IMG/VR virus record: IMGVR_UViG_3300037342_000044
Location: 1-31,465 of that record
Length of the DNA: 31,465 nucleotides
Direction: 5' to 3' (one strand)
Origin: a virus
Both the position numbers and the translations under genes were made by a program. Positions 13,292 to 28,135 of the stretch are shown piece after piece. The notes beneath the pieces are model-generated. The model had not been told where the DNA came from and searched no databases. It saw only the letters and a list, made by a program, of their open reading frames with translations. The stretch's first letter is position 1, and every line of letters starts with the position of its first letter.

Positions 13292-13612
13292 TCATCGAGG
13301 AGTTCGGACTGGAACACCATATGGGAGCGCCCGGATCTTCTTCGTGAAGGAGTCCAGCTCGTCTTCGAGGTCCCCCATGACCATGTTGAATTGCGGGGTG
13401 CTGTAGTACCTCACCCCGCTACGAGCCCGCTCGGCATCGGACATGAGGCCGTGGGAGGACCGGATCCCCCACTCCTTCATGATGTAGTGGACCTGGACCA
13501 GGTGCTTGATGACCTCGTCGTGCTCATTCCGTGGGATGAGCGGGTCGTTCGGTTTCGGGGTCGCCGCCGTGGCTTCATCAGCAGCGCGGCGGCGATCGTA
13601 CGAGTATGTCAC
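13292..13612 (-). CDS. Hypothetical small protein downstream of the sheath gene
   Basis: 106 residues, GTG start at 13612, eleven bases after the sheath stop. The ribosome site GAGGT is part of a short perfect inverted repeat (13613-13625) next to the start codon. The protein is acidic-basic mixed and helical (HDEVIKHLVQVHYIMKEWG, MGDLEDELDSFTKKIRAL) with no Cys or membrane segment. Not recognised. Coding is supported by operon position, high third-position GC and exact fit between neighbours. Confidence 0.6.
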   Translation of the reverse strand: MTYSYDRRRAADEATAATPKPNDPLIPRNEHDEVIKHLVQVHYIMKEWGIRSSHGLMSDAERARSGVRYYSTPQFNMVMGDLEDELDSFTKKIRALPYGVPVRTPR

Positions 13613-13625
13613 GAGGTTGGACCTC
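13613..13625 (-). promoter_or_regulatory. Short hairpin covering the ribosome site between sheath stop and next start
   Basis: On the minus strand GAGGT-CCA-ACCTC is a perfect 5-bp inverted repeat. It overlaps the sheath stop codon (TGA, 13626-13624) and ends directly before the GTG start at 13612. The 5' arm contains the only plausible ribosome site. A ribosome terminating on the sheath gene would open it, so translational coupling is a reasonable reading; a 3-base loop and 5 pairs are weak and may be chance. Confidence 0.35.
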
Positions 13626-16600
13626 AGATGCTCGCGCGGAGGTTGAAGGTCAGCACGAGGTACTCCAACGGGAAGATCGGGGAGTAGTACATCGTGAAGT
13701 CGAGGATGGTCGGGTCGTTGGGGTCAACGACTGCGCTCATGCCCGTGAAGGCGCCGACGATCTCCGCCTGGACGAGGGACTTGAAGAGCCCCGTCATCGA
13801 GACGACGACCTGGTTGGTGCGGGAGAGGAACTTCAGACCGACGTAGGAGTCGAGCAGGGCGCGCGACTGCTGCTGGACGAAGTCCGCGATCTGGGTGACC
13901 GACGGGAGCCTCGTAAGAATCGAGGCCATGTTGGTCGTGAGACCCTGGCGGATCCGGAGGAACCCGTTGCCGAGGTCGTCGATGAGCGTGATGCCCGCAA
14001 CGGCCGTCTGGTTCGCGGTCACCGGGTCCAGCGTCGTGTTGAGCTGGGTGAAGCCCTGGAGCCGGATGTGCGTGTAGGGCGTGGCCACGTCGACCGAGGG
14101 GGCGACCACCGCTCCGGCCACCGCGGCGCCGAAGAAGGTGCCGTCGATGATCGAGTTGAAGGACTGGCCGGTCTCGTCGGTCAGCGTGATCGTCGAGCTG
14201 TCGGGGTAGAAGACGACGATGCGGGAGGATACGAGCGCTTGGGCGATTGCCTGGACGTTCGACGCCGACGTTCCGCTGAGGACACCGAAGAAGCCCATCC
14301 GCTCCGCCTGGTTGCGGGTGTTCGACTGGGTCTCGCAGTGGTTCGTGAGGTACGAGGCCACCGCCGTGCTGCCCGCGAGCGGGATGATGATGTCCGGCTT
14401 CACGTTCCCGGGGAGCGGGGTCGCCAGGTTCGCGATGGCGTTGATGTACGCCTGATCGGTCGCCTGGTTCGTGCCGGGCACCACCTGGACCTGCGACAGG
14501 CCGATGAGGACGGCGCCGTTCAGGATGCAGAGGTACGCGCCGAGGGAGATGCTGTTCGACGGAGCGACCGCACCGAAGTTCGCCTCGATGGTCTTGAGCG
14601 TCTGGTAGATTTGGACGCTGTAGTCCTGCTTGGCGTACAGGTACGAGATGAAGTAGAAGTCGCCGACCGCCGGCTCGATGCCGCCCGGGTTGAACGTGGA
14701 GATCGTCGCGGTGTCACCGACGCCGACGTTGTTCAGGTTGGAGACGAGCATCTCGACGCCAGCGACGGCGTAGCGAGGGTTGCTCGGATCCACGTGGAAT
14801 GTCTGGCTGACGAGCATCGTGAAGCTGCCGCCAGGGTTGTAGCTACCCACAGAGGCGGGCATGACCGTGAACCGGAGCCCTGTGACTGCGTCCGTGTACG
14901 TCTGGCCGGGGGTACCGACACCACTCGAACCGTTCGGGTTCGACGACGTGACCACGTACTGATCGTGGGGGTCCTCACCGTCGTCGCCATCCACGCCTGG
15001 GGTGATCCCCACGCCAGTGGTCGAATTGAAGGCGGAGTTCGAGCTGTTGACGAATCCGATGTTGGAGGCTGCCGCACCGACGAGAAGGGACTCCATCGTG
15101 ATGTAGACGCCGCCGTTCAGGCTGTTCACGTAGGCGATGGCGCCCGAGGCGAAGCCCGAAGTTGCATCGAGTTCGTTGACGATCTCCTGGGCCTGAACCT
15201 GCGTCTGCTGTGCAGACTGGTTCTGCACGAAGCCGAGGGGGGCGTTCGCGCTGCCGTTGCCCAAGATGAGGGCCGAGCTGGAGTCGTTGGTCGGGCTCGT
15301 GAGGCGGACCTTGTTGACGTTCGCCAGCGTACCGACCGAGGCGACCCCGGAGAGTCCAGGGACCGCGTTGATCGCGGCCACGACCGCCGAAGCAGCCACG
15401 GCCGTCCCGGCAGGCATCGTCACCTGATACGCGGTGCCGTTGACCGTCACCAGGAAGTTGTCGTTGAGGCCTGCCGTGATGTTGAACGGACCGACCATAC
15501 CGCCGAGCAGGGTCGCCGGCTTGTTGACAGCACCCGAAGTGCCGAGAGCAGCCGAGAAGGGCGTGAAGCCCACAACCGAGTTCGCCGTGCCCTGGAGGAT
15601 CTTCACCGCCGAAGGCGAGTCGAACCCGCCCGGGAGAGCGGCCGGCGTCGAGAAGCTCTTGATGACGAAGAGGACGTCACCGTAGACCGTCGGGCCGTTC
15701 GGACCGATCTGGACGAAGCTGGCGAGGTTGTTGGGGCCTGGGGAGAACGGGGCGGTTGCGTCGATGGCCGCATTGATGGCCGCGACGATGGCCGTCGGGG
15801 TCATGAACCCAGGGGTCAACGTGATCGTGGGGATGATGACCCCGTCGATCTGGATGTTGAGCTGATTGCCCGGGGAAGCGGGGATGGTGATCTCCCCCGC
15901 GTTGCCGCCGGACTGGATGGGCGTCACATGCGCGCCAACGAGGTAGCCCTTGGCCGGCGCCGCGAGGTTCGTGAGCACAGACGTGCCGTTTACGAGCGTC
16001 GTCCAGTTGGCCGAGTACGGCGTGAAGATGCTGTACGGCTGGGCATTGTGGTTAGTGAAGGCCGCGTTGCTGGCGGCGCTCTGCCCGAAGGTGCAGGTCA
16101 CGATCTCGGCGACAGACGTTCCCGCGCCCGTCATGAAGGCGTCGGGAATGGTCTCGACACCCCGGGGCCACTGCACCGGCGTAGAGAGCCCCGAGGGGGT
16201 TCCGAAGCGGATCTCCCAGAGGTTCTCGTTGAGGAGGGTCGAGAAGAGCTTGTACTGCCCCGTCCCGAGCGGACCTGGAACCGTCGCGGTCAGGATCGTC
16301 GAGTCGTCGTTGATGAGGTTGTACCAGAACGTCGCGAACACCGTGTAGTCCGGCGGAACCGGGGACTGAAGGGTGATCTGGCGGTTCGGACCATCGACTT
16401 GGGTGACAGGGATCGGCGCCTTGTTGAGGGCGTCGCGGAGCGTGCGCCCCGCGTAGACCGTCACGAGATCGGGACGGTTCGAGATCAAGTCCTGGCGACC
16501 GTTGGCGACCGAGTTGAAGAGCGGGAGCCCGAGCGGCGTGTCACGGCCGTTGCCGGTCGTCGGAACTTCCGGCAGAAGGAACTGCGTCACCGAGGTCACG

Positions 16601-17928
16601 GCCGGGATGACGGTCGTGTTCACGACGGGAGTGCAGGCCGCGAGGAAGTACTGGGCGTCGATGAGGGTCGTCGTGACCTGACCACCCGCGCCGGTGACGC
16701 CCGTGATCGGGACAGCACCAGGGCTGGTAGACGAGGCAGCCACGCTGACGGCCGCACCCCAGTTGACGACCGACACGTCGGTCGCCGGGTTCGAGATCGT
16801 GAAGTCGGACCCCTCGATGTAGTCGTTGCGGCCTGGCGAGATGCCGCAGAGAAGCACCGTGTTGACCCCCGAGTTCGGGAGGTAGTCGAACGTCTGCTGC
16901 CACGTGTTCGAGTAGTAGGTGATCGTGACCGCCGAGCCGGGGGCCGGCGCGAAGGGCAGGGTCACGATCCCGTTCGAACCATCGACCGCCGCAGCGACGA
17001 CCTGCTGGCTGTTCACCTTCACGACGACCTTCGTGGGGTCCGTCGTCGTGATGCCGCTTCCGGAGCCGTCCGTGATCGGGATCTCGTATACGCGGAACTG
17101 GGTGTTGCGCGTCGTCGTGGTTCCCGCCGTGAAGCCCAGGGGGCCGTTGGCGTTCCCAGACCCGATGGTGATGGCCTGCGTCGAAACGAGCTGGATGTGC
17201 TCCAACCCGTCGTTGTCCGTGAAGACCGACGCGAGGAGGTTCGGGAGCCGCGCTGCCGAGATGGAAGCCGCAACCGACGCCGCGGTGAGCGACCCCGGGG
17301 GGAACACGATGGTCCCCGAGACGCCGTTCACGCTCACGATGAACGTGTCGTTCGTTCCCGTGATGATCGCGAAGGGTGCGTACCCTGGAGAGATGAGGGT
17401 GGCGTTCGCCGCCGTCACCTGGTTCGACAGTGTGTCGGTGAACTGCGTGTCGCCGCGGTGGAAGTAGTACGTCGCAGCAACCACGTCGGTCGGCTGGGTC
17501 GGAACTTCGAGGCTGATGAGCCCCATCTGGCCTGCCACGCTTGAGACGACGACGGGGTTCCCGTTGACCGTGACGGTGACCGCTGTGGTCTTGTTCGTCA
17601 CGAGCCCGAAGCCCTGCCCATCCGTGATGGGGTAGTTCGAGACCCGGAACGTCGTGTACGTCCCGTTCTGCGCCCCGAGGACCAGGTTGTTGGGGTTGAC
17701 CGCGTTGACCACCCACGAGGTGGTCTCGTCCTCGTTGACGATCTGCTCGTCGAGGGTGCCGCTGCTGCCGCGGACCAGCTCGACGTTGTCTTGCTCCAGG
17801 TTTTGCTGGCCAACACCGATGATGACGGGGATGCGAAGCCCCGCCGTCACGTTGCTGACGTTAGCCTCCGTGAGCGTGCGCGTGTAAACGCCGGGCGGAA
17901 CGTAGGTGATGAAGGGACCGAGAGCCAT
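13624..17928 (-). CDS. Tail sheath protein, exceptionally large with repeated inserted domains
   Basis: 1434 residues; typical sheaths are about 400-700. ATG at 17928 follows GAGGAG. The N-terminus (FITYVPPGVYTRTLTEAN) is the standard sheath opening that links subunits, and residues about 1190-1434 (MGFFGVLSG, VAGAVVAPSVD, RIRQGLTT, SYVGLKFLS) match the conserved C-terminal sheath core with its inner strand. Between them lie two repeat families: A at about 192-268, 685-792 and 821-902 (VxVNG, AAxINA, then GSANxPLGF), and B at about 90-165, 277-348 and a partial copy at 505-560 (FRVxxxPITDG, V-V-VN, TYY). These are beta-type domains likely displayed on the tail surface. Sheath subunits contract to drive the tube through the envelope. 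It has its own long 5' gap, fitting high expression. Confidence 0.93.
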   Translation of the reverse strand: MALGPFITYVPPGVYTRTLTEANVSNVTAGLRIPVIIGVGQQNLEQDNVELVRGSSGTLDEQIVNEDETTSWVVNAVNPNNLVLGAQNGTYTTFRVSNYPITDGQGFGLVTNKTTAVTVTVNGNPVVVSSVAGQMGLISLEVPTQPTDVVAATYYFHRGDTQFTDTLSNQVTAANATLISPGYAPFAIITGTNDTFIVSVNGVSGTIVFPPGSLTAASVAASISAARLPNLLASVFTDNDGLEHIQLVSTQAITIGSGNANGPLGFTAGTTTTRNTQFRVYEIPITDGSGSGITTTDPTKVVVKVNSQQVVAAAVDGSNGIVTLPFAPAPGSAVTITYYSNTWQQTFDYLPNSGVNTVLLCGISPGRNDYIEGSDFTISNPATDVSVVNWGAAVSVAASSTSPGAVPITGVTGAGGQVTTTLIDAQYFLAACTPVVNTTVIPAVTSVTQFLLPEVPTTGNGRDTPLGLPLFNSVANGRQDLISNRPDLVTVYAGRTLRDALNKAPIPVTQVDGPNRQITLQSPVPPDYTVFATFWYNLINDDSTILTATVPGPLGTGQYKLFSTLLNENLWEIRFGTPSGLSTPVQWPRGVETIPDAFMTGAGTSVAEIVTCTFGQSAASNAAFTNHNAQPYSIFTPYSANWTTLVNGTSVLTNLAAPAKGYLVGAHVTPIQSGGNAGEITIPASPGNQLNIQIDGVIIPTITLTPGFMTPTAIVAAINAAIDATAPFSPGPNNLASFVQIGPNGPTVYGDVLFVIKSFSTPAALPGGFDSPSAVKILQGTANSVVGFTPFSAALGTSGAVNKPATLLGGMVGPFNITAGLNDNFLVTVNGTAYQVTMPAGTAVAASAVVAAINAVPGLSGVASVGTLANVNKVRLTSPTNDSSSALILGNGSANAPLGFVQNQSAQQTQVQAQEIVNELDATSGFASGAIAYVNSLNGGVYITMESLLVGAAASNIGFVNSSNSAFNSTTGVGITPGVDGDDGEDPHDQYVVTSSNPNGSSGVGTPGQTYTDAVTGLRFTVMPASVGSYNPGGSFTMLVSQTFHVDPSNPRYAVAGVEMLVSNLNNVGVGDTATISTFNPGGIEPAVGDFYFISYLYAKQDYSVQIYQTLKTIEANFGAVAPSNSISLGAYLCILNGAVLIGLSQVQVVPGTNQATDQAYINAIANLATPLPGNVKPDIIIPLAGSTAVASYLTNHCETQSNTRNQAERMGFFGVLSGTSASNVQAIAQALVSSRIVVFYPDSSTITLTDETGQSFNSIIDGTFFGAAVAGAVVAPSVDVATPYTHIRLQGFTQLNTTLDPVTANQTAVAGITLIDDLGNGFLRIRQGLTTNMASILTRLPSVTQIADFVQQQSRALLDSYVGLKFLSRTNQVVVSMTGLFKSLVQAEIVGAFTGMSAVVDPNDPTILDFTMYYSPIFPLEYLVLTFNLRASI

Positions 17929-20180: not shown

Positions 20181-21194
20181 CTAGGTGCTGTCCTCCTCGG
20201 ACGCGAGGACAAGAAGACCCTCAGCCACGGCCGTCATCGGATCCTTCGCCGGGCGGATGTCGCTGATCTGGATCGGGAAGCCGCGCTTTTGCATGGCCTC
20301 GAACTCCTCGCGGAAGACGTCGAGAAAGCCACCCGCTTTCGACGTGCCCCCGGAGACCACGAAGGGAATCGGCTCGGGCAGATCGAGCGACGTCTGAACC
20401 TTCCGGAACTGGATGGCGATGTTCTCCAGGCAGTACTTGATGAGGCTCCTGATGTAGAGCGCGATGGCCTCGGCGTCACGGTTGCCCTTCTCGGGGTTCG
20501 CGATGTTGACGCCCTTCTCCTTGATGGCGCACATGCGAGCGTTCGTGGACCCCATCGCCTTGGCGGCGTGGCTGTCGATCCAGTCCCCCCCACGGGCGAC
20601 AGCGAACTCCAGTCCGCACACCGTCTGGTAGGCCAGCGCGACGTTGCACATGCCCGACCCGAAGGAGACGGAGAGCCCGGAGAAGTTTTCCTTCGAGCAC
20701 TGCGAGTAGATGATGGCCATCGCCTCGTTGGCGGGGTGTGCCGTGTACCCGTGCTCGTTGACGATCTTCTTGAAGACCTCGGTGTGGTAGATGACGTCCT
20801 GATCGAGATCGTCGATCGGGGCCGCGGGCACGCTGTAGTAGCAATGCTCCCCCGCCTTCACGGGCTCCCCCAAGACGTGCTTGATGAGGAGGCTGAGGAT
20901 CTGCTGGGCCTCGATCTCGCCCGCGGAGATGACGCCGCGCGAGAGGGGACGCCGAAGCTCCCGCTTGAAGAGGTTCACCATGTTGAGGGCCGAGTCCCCG
21001 ATCACGATGAGGCGCCCGTCCTTCTCCACGTAGTCAACCTTCGAGAGCCGCAGCGTCTTCTTGGCCTCCAGGTCGAGGTCGATGAAGGCGTCCCGCATGC
21101 GTACGGTCTGAATCTTCCCCTCAGCGTTCATGCGGGCGCTGACGATGTTCATGGTCCCGATGTCGAGACCCACGGCGGGCTTGAAGTCACTCAT
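20181..21194 (-). CDS. Actin-like ATPase (MreB/ParM/FtsA superfamily)
   Basis: 337 residues, ATG at 21194 after GAGGA. All parts of the actin/Hsp70 ATPase fold can be placed: phosphate-1 loop VGLDIGTMNIVSA (8-20), connect-1 helix AHPANEAMAIIYS (152-164), phosphate-2 loop GLSVSFGSGMCNVAL (173-187), a GGDWID segment (202-207) and the adenosine motif FVVSGGTSKAGGF (278-290). Length fits the MreB/ParM class. In phosphate-2 the usual Asp (DxGGGT) is Ser177 and the later Asp is Asn184, so nucleotide hydrolysis may be slow or changed. Bacterial relatives polymerise into filaments that move DNA or shape cells. A structural-operon location next to Dps-like and neck genes suggests action late in infection, for example in virion positioning or assembly; that is inference. 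Confidence 0.87.
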   Translation of the reverse strand: MSDFKPAVGLDIGTMNIVSARMNAEGKIQTVRMRDAFIDLDLEAKKTLRLSKVDYVEKDGRLIVIGDSALNMVNLFKRELRRPLSRGVISAGEIEAQQILSLLIKHVLGEPVKAGEHCYYSVPAAPIDDLDQDVIYHTEVFKKIVNEHGYTAHPANEAMAIIYSQCSKENFSGLSVSFGSGMCNVALAYQTVCGLEFAVARGGDWIDSHAAKAMGSTNARMCAIKEKGVNIANPEKGNRDAEAIALYIRSLIKYCLENIAIQFRKVQTSLDLPEPIPFVVSGGTSKAGGFLDVFREEFEAMQKRGFPIQISDIRPAKDPMTAVAEGLLVLASEEDST

Positions 21195-21233: not shown

Positions 21234-21968
21234 TCATCTGGATCGGTCGTAGCTGACCTTGGTCTGGACTCGTTGCCGGAGCAGGTAGACGAAAGACTCG
21301 TGCTCGTCGGCGATCCCCTGAAGGAGGTTGTCCGTGCCCTTCGACAGGACCCCCTGCGACTGGAGCGCGCTGTACGCCATCCCGATGAAGGACAGCACGT
21401 AGACCTCCGTGAGGAAGCTCACGAGCGCCTGCTGGTCGGCCTCAGGGTCGGCCTGGATGTCCCCCGCGAAGAACTTCACGAGGACCGCCATCTGGTTCGA
21501 CTGGATGACAGGGTGCACGAGGACCCTGTGTCCCGAGCCCACCGCGCGCTCAGCCAGTTGGTCGATCATCCCGAGCGACTGCTCGTAGAGGTGATCGTAC
21601 AGCTTGTGGTCCGAGTAGAAGGTGCTCCCCCGCGTCTGCCAGTGGTTCGACTGGTGAACGAACGCCGCCGCTCGAAGAACGACGAGGAGCGCCGCAAGCT
21701 CCGCAAGGACGATCTTCTGGTAGTCTCCCACCAGGGTCAGGAAGATTTGCGCCGCAGGGCTCGCGTTGGCGACCTTGGTGACGTACTCCCGGATGGCGGC
21801 TTTCGTCGCGCGCCCAAGCTTGACCTTCGCCTCCGGGAGGTACGGAGGCCCCATCGTCATATGGTCGTACGTCGAGGGATCGTGCCAGAGGGCGTAGATC
21901 GACTCGGCATGGAGGCCCGTGTATGGGTCCGTGACAGGGAGTTCCTCAGCCGAGCGCTCGTTGGCCAT
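21234..21968 (-). CDS. Dps/ferritin-like protein
   Basis: 244 residues, ATG at 21968. Residues 105-146 read HQSNHWQTRG, then an Asp-His pair, then IDQLAERAVGSG, the Dps signature. The four ferroxidase ligands of Dps are all present at canonical spacing: His109, His121 (+12), Asp136 (+15), Glu140 (+4). The last helix (ADEHESFVYLLRQR, 220-233) resembles the final Dps helix. A N-terminal extension of about 75 residues and a longer middle section make it bigger than usual Dps (about 160-180). Dps proteins form 12-subunit shells that oxidise and store iron and bind DNA, protecting it from peroxide. Here the gene lies in the neck/tail operon directly upstream of the actin-like gene. Virion incorporation or genome protection is inference. 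Confidence 0.8.
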   Translation of the reverse strand: MANERSAEELPVTDPYTGLHAESIYALWHDPSTYDHMTMGPPYLPEAKVKLGRATKAAIREYVTKVANASPAAQIFLTLVGDYQKIVLAELAALLVVLRAAAFVHQSNHWQTRGSTFYSDHKLYDHLYEQSLGMIDQLAERAVGSGHRVLVHPVIQSNQMAVLVKFFAGDIQADPEADQQALVSFLTEVYVLSFIGMAYSALQSQGVLSKGTDNLLQGIADEHESFVYLLRQRVQTKVSYDRSR

Positions 21969-25657: not shown

Positions 25658-25795
25658 TCAGATCAAGTCGAGCAGCTTCCAGTCGTTCATGGAGATCCGA
25701 ATCGGGCTCCTCGAAGGGCTCAGGCGCATGTCAAAGTGGCCGTCCTTCGGGGTGATGACCTTGGTGGTGATCTTCCTGCGATCGTAGTCGTGCAT
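25658..25795 (-). CDS. Small ORF, 45 residues
   Basis: Starts with ATG at 25795, immediately after the TGA of the upstream gene (TGAGATG), ends TGA at 25660-25658. The product (MHDYDRRKITTKVITPKDGH, ending ISMNDWKLLDLI) has balanced composition and almost all codons end in G or C, like the real genes here. It is too short for family recognition. A plus-strand frame overlaps it with similar composition, so confidence is moderate. Confidence 0.5.
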   Translation of the reverse strand: MHDYDRRKITTKVITPKDGHFDMRLSPSRSPIRISMNDWKLLDLI

Positions 25796-25796
25796 C

Positions 25797-26054
25797 TCAA
25801 CCCATGCCCCAACCACGAAGAATCGCGGGCATGTCCTCTTTGGGTGGGGGCATCGCCATCGGCTTGCCTTGGCAAGTGGGCGCGCGGTGGAACCAGTTCG
25901 TCCCGTCGTAGTACAGGCCCTTCTCGTGTATTTCCTGCTGGCAGTGAGGGCAGACGAGGAACTTGCGCGGCACCATCTCGGTCTTCTCGACGACCTGAGG
26001 AAGATCCTGGGCCCCCAGGAACCTCGAAGCGACCCTGCTCGCGAGCTTGTCCAT
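25797..26054 (-). CDS. Small zinc-binding protein with shared N-terminal helix
   Basis: 85 residues. ATG at 26054 overlaps the upstream stop (TGATG); the longer frame to 26201 runs inside the neighbour and is rejected. It opens MDKLASRVASRFLGA, the same N-terminal helix as the proteins at 27911 and 28135. Then Cys35-Cys38 (LVCPHCQQEIHEKG), YYDGTNWFHRAPTC with His56 and Cys61: a CX2C...HX4C single zinc-binding unit. The C-terminus is Met/Pro-rich. The shared helix suggests a common docking or targeting function; the zinc module suggests compact folding or nucleic-acid contact. Confidence 0.72.
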   Translation of the reverse strand: MDKLASRVASRFLGAQDLPQVVEKTEMVPRKFLVCPHCQQEIHEKGLYYDGTNWFHRAPTCQGKPMAMPPPKEDMPAILRGWGMG

Positions 26055-26956
26055 CAGAACCCCATGAACTTGCGGGGTGAGAGTACACCGCGCCCGGCGT
26101 AGGGACCGAAGGCCGACCTGATGCCGGTGCCGTACTTCGGCTGCTGGAGACCCGCGATGTAGTTGACCGTGGCCTTGGCCTTCTCGATCTGCTTGTCCCA
26201 CATCTCAACGGTCCCGTTGTAGGCTCCCTCGTACTTGCTGGCCTTGTCGAGCGCGAGGCTCACGCCACCGATGCTGTAGTCGAACTCGTCGGCGATCCAG
26301 TTGTTTCGGAGCGCATGAAGGGCCTTCGCCATCGCGCCGGTGAGAAGCACCGTCTCCCACTCTTGCCGCCCTTGCATCATCGCTTCGACGCTCGCAAAGG
26401 GGGTACGCGGGGGGTACGCAATGATGTCGTTGAGCGCGAGCCGGATGAACTCGTACAGCTCTGTGCTCTCCCAGATGAACCCGAAGACCTTGCTGTACTG
26501 CTGGATCGTGCGCTCGTGTGTGGGCGGCCTGAAGTGGTAGTTGCGGTCCGGGTTATTGTCCCGGAGGAGGACACGCAGGCTATCCCCTAGCTGGTGCATA
26601 ACGGAGCTGTACCGCTCCTCGGGACGGTCCTGGAGGCCCGTGGACTTGTCCACGACCTCAAACTCCTGCACGACCTGCTGGACCTGGCCCCCAATGATCT
26701 CCTGGAACGTCCACTTCACCCGGTAAGGGCCAAGGTTCGCGTCCAGCGGGATGAGGTTGCTAGCGTAGTACTCACCGATGGCGGGGTTCTCCGGACGCCG
26801 CTGCGGAGGACCAACGAGCACGCCCTCCCCCGTCGTGTAGTCGAAGAAGGCGTACGACATGATCGCCGCGTTGACGGGGACATCGTTCGTGTTGTGGAGG
26901 TATAGGTGCAGGTCGCGCCGACCGAGCTGCTGCCCTCTGAAGTACGCGACGCCCAT
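26054..26956 (-). CDS. Structural protein with N-terminal Ig-like domain
   Basis: 300 residues, ATG at 26956, one base past the upstream stop (TGACATG). Residues 13-103 are a beta domain (RRDLHLYLHNTND, VGPPQRRPENPAIGEYYA, YRVKWTF, FEVVD) related to the C-terminal domain of the Cys/His-rich protein at 28145. Residues 130-230 are helical, and the C-terminus (FDYSIGGVSLALDKASKYEG, then KYGTGIRSAFGPYAGRG) is a pattern known to me from connector- or neck-type proteins of large myophages. No catalytic residues. Structural function is inferred. Confidence 0.62.
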   Translation of the reverse strand: MGVAYFRGQQLGRRDLHLYLHNTNDVPVNAAIMSYAFFDYTTGEGVLVGPPQRRPENPAIGEYYASNLIPLDANLGPYRVKWTFQEIIGGQVQQVVQEFEVVDKSTGLQDRPEERYSSVMHQLGDSLRVLLRDNNPDRNYHFRPPTHERTIQQYSKVFGFIWESTELYEFIRLALNDIIAYPPRTPFASVEAMMQGRQEWETVLLTGAMAKALHALRNNWIADEFDYSIGGVSLALDKASKYEGAYNGTVEMWDKQIEKAKATVNYIAGLQQPKYGTGIRSAFGPYAGRGVLSPRKFMGF

Positions 26957-26957
26957 G

Positions 26958-27911
26958 TCAGTCGAACTCCCCTTTGACGGCCTGGTCGAGCATCTCGACT
27001 TGATCGTCGATCTTCTTGCCGTACGCCCAGGTCTGCTCCGCTTGCAGCGCCCTCATGCGGTAGCCGAACTGCTCTTTGACCTTGAGGTGGTCCACGCGGT
27101 TCCGCTTCCAGTCCCCCAAAGCGGCGTGCAGCAAGTGGAGCGCGTGGGCGGCCTGGCTGTCGTCCACGATGTGGTTCTCGTACTGACGGAGCTTCTCGAT
27201 GAGCTGGTCACCGGCCTTGGCTGAGGCCTCCCCCAGGGAGTAGAGCTTTTTGTAGCTCTCGTCGAACTTCTTCACGGCCGCCGGCTTGGCATCTTCGGCG
27301 TCGGCCTGAAACTTCTTCAGAGATTCGTAGACCTTGGTGATCTCTGCCGCGCGCGCCTTGGCTTTCGGAGCATCAGCAGAAACGAGCTTAAGGAGAGCCT
27401 CGGGTAGCGGGGCAGGCTCAGGTTTCGGCTTCACTGCGAGGAGCACGCGCTGACCCCCAAGGAACTGCTGAAGCTCCTTCCAGATCGGCATCGCCTTCTT
27501 GAACTGCTCCGCAAACGTCTCCGCCGGCATCTTGTGGAGAACAGCGTTGTAAGTGGGCATGTTCGTGAAGAAGTCCACCTTGTGGAAAAGCTCCTGAGCA
27601 CGCTCGCGCTCTTTCCCGGAGTCCTTCGGGATGGCCGCATCGAGTGCGTGGTGCATCGCCGTTGCGTACTTCGTGTACTCGTCCATCAAGCGCTCGACCT
27701 CGCGCTCGGACGTCTTGTCCTGGGGCTTCTGGCGGAAGACCTTGATGGCGAAGGGGAGCTTCGTCATCAGCTCGTCGAGCTTGTGGTGATCCGGTAGCTT
27801 CGGCTTGGGCAGCTTCTTCGCCGCCTCTTCGAGCGCATACTTCTGCGCAACCCGAGCGGCGATCAGGGTGTCGTTGAAGCGCTGCGCGACCTTCGAGGCT
27901 AGCCCGTCCAT
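26958..27911 (-). CDS. Helical protein with shared N-terminal tag
   Basis: 317 residues. ATG at 27911 overlaps the upstream stop (TGATG); the 37-codon extension upstream is a shadow of the neighbour. It opens MDGLASKVAQRFNDTLIAAR and repeats the theme at once (ARVAQKYALEEA). The rest is nearly all helical and rich in Lys, Glu and Ala (KPKLPDHHKLDELMTKLP, AEITKVYESLKKFQADAED), with a Pro/Lys linker near 160-170. No Cys. The composition fits an internal, scaffold-like or ejected virion protein; that is inference, as no family is recognised. Confidence 0.65.
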   Translation of the reverse strand: MDGLASKVAQRFNDTLIAARVAQKYALEEAAKKLPKPKLPDHHKLDELMTKLPFAIKVFRQKPQDKTSEREVERLMDEYTKYATAMHHALDAAIPKDSGKERERAQELFHKVDFFTNMPTYNAVLHKMPAETFAEQFKKAMPIWKELQQFLGGQRVLLAVKPKPEPAPLPEALLKLVSADAPKAKARAAEITKVYESLKKFQADAEDAKPAAVKKFDESYKKLYSLGEASAKAGDQLIEKLRQYENHIVDDSQAAHALHLLHAALGDWKRNRVDHLKVKEQFGYRMRALQAEQTWAYGKKIDDQVEMLDQAVKGEFD

Positions 27912-28135
27912 CACTCGTCCTTCTTGTGGGTCTTGTCGCCCTTGTTCTTCATGTACCAAGCGAGCGCGAAGGGGTTGTCGACCTCGTCGTCTTTCTTGAG
28001 TTCCTTGACGACGTGTTCCCAACCCTTGCCCGGGGGTGCCACGGCGAGGAGGTACCGGCGCGCGACCCGGGAGACGATCGGATCAGCCTCCGCACCGAGG
28101 AACCTTCGGGCAACTTTCGCAGCAAGCGGGTCCAT
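27911..28135 (-). CDS. Small conserved phage protein with NPFALAWYMKNKG motif
   Basis: 74 residues, ATG at 28135 with GAGGAG six bases upstream. Residues 1-13 are MDPLAAKVARRFL and a second copy of the helix follows (IVSRVARRYLLA, 20-31). Residues 38-67 (GWEHVVKELKKDDEVDN then PFALAWYMKNKG) match a short motif widespread in small phage proteins, where a 'GWE..V..MKK...I.NPFALAW.MKNKG' block recurs; its function is not established to my knowledge. The double helix tag plus this block suggest a small protein that binds other virion parts. Confidence 0.72.
   Translation of the reverse strand: MDPLAAKVARRFLGAEADPIVSRVARRYLLAVAPPGKGWEHVVKELKKDDEVDNPFALAWYMKNKGDKTHKKDE

Follow-up and report, generated by a model that had tools for sequence, protein, structure and literature searches.

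We asked why three neighboring genes of a huge phage, which encode otherwise unrelated proteins, begin with the same peptide, and whether that peptide could direct its carriers to the virion. The initial annotation had proposed that MDxLAx(K/R)VAxRF is shared by three neighboring proteins, two of them with a second copy, that the peptide is conserved by selection because the DNA differs at many synonymous positions, and that an amphipathic helix used as a virion-targeting tag, similar in idea to the capsid targeting sequences of T4 internal proteins, is plausible. The DNA analyzed here (the window) is a 31,465-base IMG/VR record of a tailed phage, a fragment of a huge-phage genome. We find that some huge phages place the same short helix-like tag on many otherwise unrelated proteins, most often at the N-terminus, as an address label might be placed to gather them at one site, most likely inside the virus particle, although this has not been tested.

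To test whether the shared N-termini are real, the three genes (A, B and C, all on the minus strand; coordinates are listed in the table) were examined first. They start with MDKLASRVASRF, MDGLASKVAQRF and MDPLAAKVARRF, with start codons at positions 26054, 27911 and 28135, respectively, and B and C carry a second copy a few residues on. The starts are credible: A and B begin in TGATG overlaps with the stop of the upstream gene, and C has AGGAGAG upstream. At identical residues the codons differ at 5 of 8 (A/B), 7 of 10 (A/C) and 6 of 8 (B/C) positions, 18 of 26 comparisons in total, so that the peptide, not the DNA, is conserved. The pattern MDxLAx[KR]VAxRF occurs 3 times in the window and 0 times when read backwards, and a position-specific scoring matrix (PSSM) hits exactly these 3 of the 32 called genes of the window and none of the reversed proteins. 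The three bodies are not homologous to each other. The observation is thus confirmed, and it is much larger than first described.

Features of the window (positions 1 to 31,465; VA tag, the tag of genes A, B and C; G003, G004, G007, G010 and G018, related records)
Coordinates	Strand	Feature	Details
13292..13612	-	106-aa gene with second tag type	MTYSYDRRRAAD; next to the sheath gene
13624..17928	-	Tail sheath, 1434 aa	Anchor of the syntenic structural module; PHROG match (E 4e-23) only in the C-terminal 360 residues; orthologues reach 1863 aa
19795..20172	-	125-aa gene with degenerate second tag	MYDYARTKTADH
20181..21194	-	Volactin-family actin	PF25216, E 2e-70; in the conserved tail module
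21234..21968	-	Ferritin/Dps-like protein	Conserved next to the volactin gene in the tail module
25658..25795	-	45-aa ORF with second tag type	MHDYDRRKITTK; H in place of Y
25797..26054	-	Gene A, 85 aa	CPHC...C body; no Pfam family; no relative in 50,697 phage records
26010..26054	-	VA tag of gene A	MDKLASRVASRFLGA; PSSM score above 25
26054..26956	-	Conserved core gene	Flanks the slots filled by tagged genes
26958..27911	-	Gene B, 317 aa	Helical body; homologue G007_440 is also tagged; low-confidence model only
27834..27863	-	Second tag copy in B	IAARVAQKYA, residues 17-26
27867..27911	-	VA tag of gene B	MDGLASKVAQRFNDT
27911..28135	-	Gene C, 74 aa	Body APPGKGWEHVVKELKK..NPFALAWYMKNKG; VA-tagged homologues in G003, G004 and G018, variant-tagged homologue in G010
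28049..28078	-	Second tag copy in C	IVSRVARRYL, residues 20-29
28091..28135	-	VA tag of gene C	MDPLAAKVARRFLGA

The window also encodes an endolysin-like domain, and the role of a ferritin/Dps-like protein in a phage structural module is unexplained. The strict tag pattern found 9 stretches in 8 IMG/VR contigs, among them records of 529, 452 and 372 kb; one of the 9, in a 4-kb contig, looks like a chance match. The genes of the window are syntenic in the related records G001, G003, G004, G005, G007, G010 (IMGVR_UViG_3300012980_000004) and G015, and in LR745208, an unannotated 485-kb record of an uncultured phage; the structural module is syntenic in a clade of ∼350-530 kb phages. The capsid protein of the clade is 48% identical to that of Tunturiibacter phage Tunturi_5 and 39% identical to that of Bacillus phage G. 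Among annotated phages no relative was found for A or B, and C gave one weak internal match. The body of C is a small domain, APPGWExxVKxMKKxxEIDNPFALAWxMKNKG, conserved in 5 huge phages without any Pfam family, with a partial match in a 990-aa protein of Virus Rctr197k. No relatives among annotated phages were found for the RPINKPKG family or for one tagged peptidase.

A search for further proteins with this N-terminus beyond the three had been named beforehand as a test. Genes were called in the window and 12 related records (3,929 genes) and scored with a 10-column profile. In the first 11 records, 71 of 2,951 genes had the tag in the first 16 residues, whereas reversed proteins gave 6 of 41,946 windows. 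Over all 13 records, 89 of 3,929 genes were tagged, and these fall into 54 unrelated body families. To avoid circularity, each genome was scored with a profile built without it, giving 74 of 3,929 genes and 0 in reversed proteins, and genome G018, used in no training, gave 14 of 410. An unbiased search for enriched gapped N-terminal words returned this tag and one other, Y[SD]YDRR, on top. In 257 Gb of prokaryote genomes the strict DNA pattern has only 14 stretches in scattered taxa, close to our estimate for chance. No tag was detected in Tunturi_5 (0 of 286 genes in 250 kb) or in LR756511 (0 of 401 genes in 300 kb, about half of the record), and no N-terminal tag in a further set of loci (L111-L118, 121 genes). 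These scans were partial, and LR756511 and the L loci have lower GC (0.37-0.46) than most tagged phages, so that the Arg-rich PSSM may under-detect there.

The core of the tag is [LI][AV]xRV[AV]xR[FY]L, then Ala, with R, V, R and F/Y nearly fixed: R outnumbers K 82 to 6 at core position 7, V is present in 81 of 89 at position 4, and F or Y in 79 of 89 at position 8, although background R and K are nearly equal. This suggests a specific pocket rather than a generic helix. A membrane-binding amphipathic helix, which the mean net charge of about +2, a hydrophobic face and the low-confidence helix prediction would favor, is therefore very unlikely: a membrane would not ask for R rather than K, V rather than I or L, or F or Y but hardly L or W, the mean hydrophobic moment is only 0.39 (random mean 0.28, 95th percentile 0.54), and the tag also occurs between domains. 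Structure models of B and C are of low confidence (pLDDT 54 and 51), and too poor for a fold search, which was not run, though the tags come out as helices.

To analyze where the tag sits, proteins of 90 aa or more were scanned at a score above 14. We observed 80 N-terminal hits in 50,592 positions, 11 C-terminal hits in 53,754 and 41 internal hits in 787,763, compared with 7 in 892,109 in the reversed control. Tandem copies are common (B, C, G001_341, G002_35 and G003_63), and G007_182 also shows two. The topoisomerase IB (TopIB) has the tag only at the C-terminus in G018, but at the N-terminus in three other phages. G005_107 (1091 aa) joins a NUDIX-like part, TopIB and an HExxH peptidase in one protein with tags between and after the domains, whereas G015_83, 84 and 85 are separate peptidase, TopIB and peptidase genes, 83 and 85 tagged at the N-terminus and 84 at residue 92 of the called protein. 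G004_14 fuses a C-type protein with a second tagged protein. The names NUDIX (G005_107), ParB-like (G001_73) and 2H (LR208_425) were read by eye from the sequence, not from a database hit.

The tagged proteins are biased toward peptidases. HExxH proteins make up 19 of 89 tagged against 23 of 3,840 untagged genes, and 23 of 42 have a tag somewhere. Pfam searches with 70 of the first 71 tagged proteins gave Topoisom_I in 3, weak matches to several zinc-peptidase families (Peptidase_Mx, Mx1, M64, and PF07737, which is named after a toxin) and a ferritin domain in 1; most have no family, and PHROGs gave only families of unknown function. This set resembles the repertoire of injected polyvalent proteins, in which peptidases are the main hub (PMC5512222). 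A handle for a protease adaptor or chaperone that controls stability or timing was considered, because many tagged proteins are small and short degrons occur at either end of proteins. This alternative is very unlikely, because it does not explain the bias to peptidases and TopIB or the internal copies in a conserved head-module protein (see below).

To learn whether the tag is linked to the head, the head genes were located. Gp23 and S77 protease HMM searches gave no match anywhere, controls included, and so carry no information, but PHROGs placed MCP (gene 234), head maturation protease (237), portal (243) and TerL (249) in G015. Gene 251, two genes past TerL, encodes a ∼130-aa protein with orthologues in 7 phages, all tagged; in G007 and G012 the tag lies at residues 38 and 21 of the called protein, so that the start call is uncertain. 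Gene 242, between protease and portal, belongs to a family of 8 and corresponds by position to the prohead core genes 67/68 of T4. Tags above 14 occur in 4 members (G001, G005, G008 and G012), most at two alignable places; in the other 4 none passes 14, although degenerate versions are visible in others. In contrast, MCP, portal, protease, TerL and sheath are untagged, and tagged genes are not significantly next to core structural genes (9 of 66 against 217 of 3,037, p 0.054) or within 3 genes of them (10 of 66 against 370 of 3,037, p 0.45). No shared late promoter and no common upstream 7-mer was found.

The scattering of tagged genes outside structural modules, and the presence of DNA enzymes among them, would also fit a tag that directs proteins to a non-virion phage structure inside the infected cell, for example the volactin-family actin filament or a replication compartment. 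Volactin is present in the window and in 9 of the 12 tagged records, the 3 without a hit (G002, G008 and G012) being short records, and Tunturi_5, which lacks the tag, has no volactin match in the 250 kb scanned. Among 50,697 phage records only LR745208 and LR756511 have a volactin match. However, LR756511 has a volactin (31% identity) but no tag in the part read. Since the always-tagged gene and the internal copies lie in the head module, we consider this alternative unlikely, but it is the strongest of those examined.

To test whether the tags follow the genome or the body, tag cores were compared. Between unrelated bodies they share 4.89 of 10 residues within a genome and 4.34 between genomes, and 0 of 500 label shuffles reach this difference, also without G010; the same body family in different genomes shares 4.50. 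For example, all 11 tags of G005 have Tyr at core position 8, and all 5 of G004 have Phe. G010 uses a variant, LxxIAxRVA, mostly without the RF part, on about 15 proteins, among them the homologue of C. This is what a common receptor that drifts between lineages would produce, although recent copying of tags within a genome could add to it.

Homologous bodies swap the VA tag for two other tags. Y[SD]YDRR, on small unrelated proteins, is present in 20 of 3,929 genes within the first 12 residues, against 11 occurrences in 926,287 other residues, and G007_437 and G003_9 carry it on bodies homologous to VA-tagged G001_216 and G004_62. LR745208 has a third tag, MTLRSKLIRLAHxNPxLRxxLLPLLKEA, on 8 proteins with unrelated bodies (e.g., at positions 20283-20732 of locus L193). 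One of them lies next to the scaffold-position gene, and one (468) is homologous to VA-tagged G007_440. The DNA pattern of this tag finds 25 stretches in IMG/VR (loci L248-L272), where 31 proteins fall into 23 families, some of them the same phage in different assemblies. In L257 the third tag stands directly before the EEARKKYLQEHPKADPKRHTV module that follows the VA tag in G007_151, an in-frame swap of tags. Such swaps, and the clustering of tags (17 of 89 tagged genes are next to another tagged gene, 4.5 expected), could also be produced if the shared N-termini were relics of gene-end shuffling, spread by recombination and without a current function. This reading is disfavored and most unlikely, because codons differ at most identical residues in the window and specific residues persist across 54 body families and highly diverged phages.

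These data suggest that (i) a selected, portable targeting peptide is well supported by the number of unrelated bodies, the synonymous codon change, the N-terminal, C-terminal and interdomain placement, and tags that track the genome rather than the body; (ii) the virion as destination is plausible, but the evidence is indirect, namely the always-tagged head-module gene, the tag copies in the protein between head protease and portal, and a cargo set resembling injected polyvalent-protein domains; and (iii) a T4-like cleavage site after the tag, strong amphipathicity and general proximity to structural genes are not supported. The interpretation in the initial annotation is therefore only partly supported.

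In our preferred model, the tag is a short helical docking peptide read by one phage-encoded receptor, and it recruits a changing set of accessory proteins into the assembling head, so that they travel in the virion and enter the next host with the DNA. What the sequences show directly is that one peptide, [LI][AV]xRV[AV]xR[FY]LxA, sits on 54 unrelated bodies, at N-termini and sometimes at C-termini or between domains, and that the peptide rather than the DNA is conserved. That the tags share a partner is inferred from their changing together within a phage, and that this partner belongs to the prohead core or a neighboring head part is inferred from the always-tagged small head-module protein and from the same helix in the large protein between protease and portal in several phages. 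Packaging, ejection and removal of the tag are not shown: no virion proteome of the clade was found, and targeting of a foreign protein by the tag was not assayed. We hold the docking role with high confidence, and the virion as destination as only somewhat more likely than not.

The closest comparison in working is the T4 capsid targeting sequence (IPI, IPII, IPIII and Alt), a short N-terminal leader on several different proteins that docks on the prohead core and brings varied proteins into the head (PMC9026906, PMC7411985). The VA tag shares with it a short N-terminal peptide on otherwise unrelated proteins, but it is also found at C-termini and between domains, its carriers are far more and more varied, and no xxE-type motif for the prohead protease is enriched within 12 residues after it ([AGS]xE in 15 and [LI]xE in 7 of 89, against 14% and 10% expected); a different cleavage rule is not excluded, and the sequences of the two were not compared. 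The propeptides of giant phage SPN3US head proteins, the C-terminal one of the protease included, are likewise proposed to target proteins into the prohead (PMC7411985), but those described are 64-130 residues long and cleaved at a motif like that of T4, whereas this tag is short and shows no such motif. A cleaved propeptide of T4 or phiKZ type was rejected because no xxE motif is enriched. In anatomy, the tag is closest to the encapsulation peptides of bacterial microcompartments, 15-20 residue helices with small hydrophobic residues on one side, at the N- or C-terminus of enzyme cargo (PMC11157265). Here the placement agrees, but with a helix predicted only at low confidence and most carriers not known enzymes, the correspondence is left undecided; the tag is on phage genes, has strict Arg and Phe/Tyr positions, frequent tandem copies and no known shell partner, shell families not having been searched for. 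Membership in neither class is claimed. The N-terminal signal peptides of eCIS effectors (PVC) also load cargo of a contractile phage-tail-like particle (PMC11495950), but they are 50-70 residue disordered segments loaded with the help of an AAA ATPase, whereas this tag is about 15 residues, with strongly enriched residues ending near core position 11, predicted helical at low confidence, and not only N-terminal. Polyvalent proteins of phages and conjugative elements overlap in domain repertoire, zincin-like peptidases above all (PMC5512222), but they join 2 to 15 domains in one polypeptide, whereas here most tagged proteins are short and most domains are separate genes unified by the tag, with a few exceptions such as G005_107. 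A literature search for a described tag of this kind in huge or jumbo phages returned none, as judged from titles and the beginning of abstracts, and not every listed paper was examined.

A more far-reaching reading, which we regard as tentative, is that huge phages use a lineage-specific sorting code, in which interchangeable address tags (the VA tag RVAxRFL, the YSYDRR tag and the LRSKLIRLAHxNP tag) are swapped in frame on the same protein bodies, co-evolve within each genome with one receptor, and mark an ejected or compartment-bound proteome that can be read from sequence alone. If the preferred model is right, the tag gives a sequence-only list of the cargo that these uncultivated huge phages deliver, or gather at one place, during infection: peptidases, topoisomerase and dozens of unknown proteins. 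It would turn the question of what a 350-500 kb phage carries into its host into a short list of testable proteins, supply a candidate portable peptide for loading proteins into very large capsids, and suggest that phage lineages differ in the address they use.
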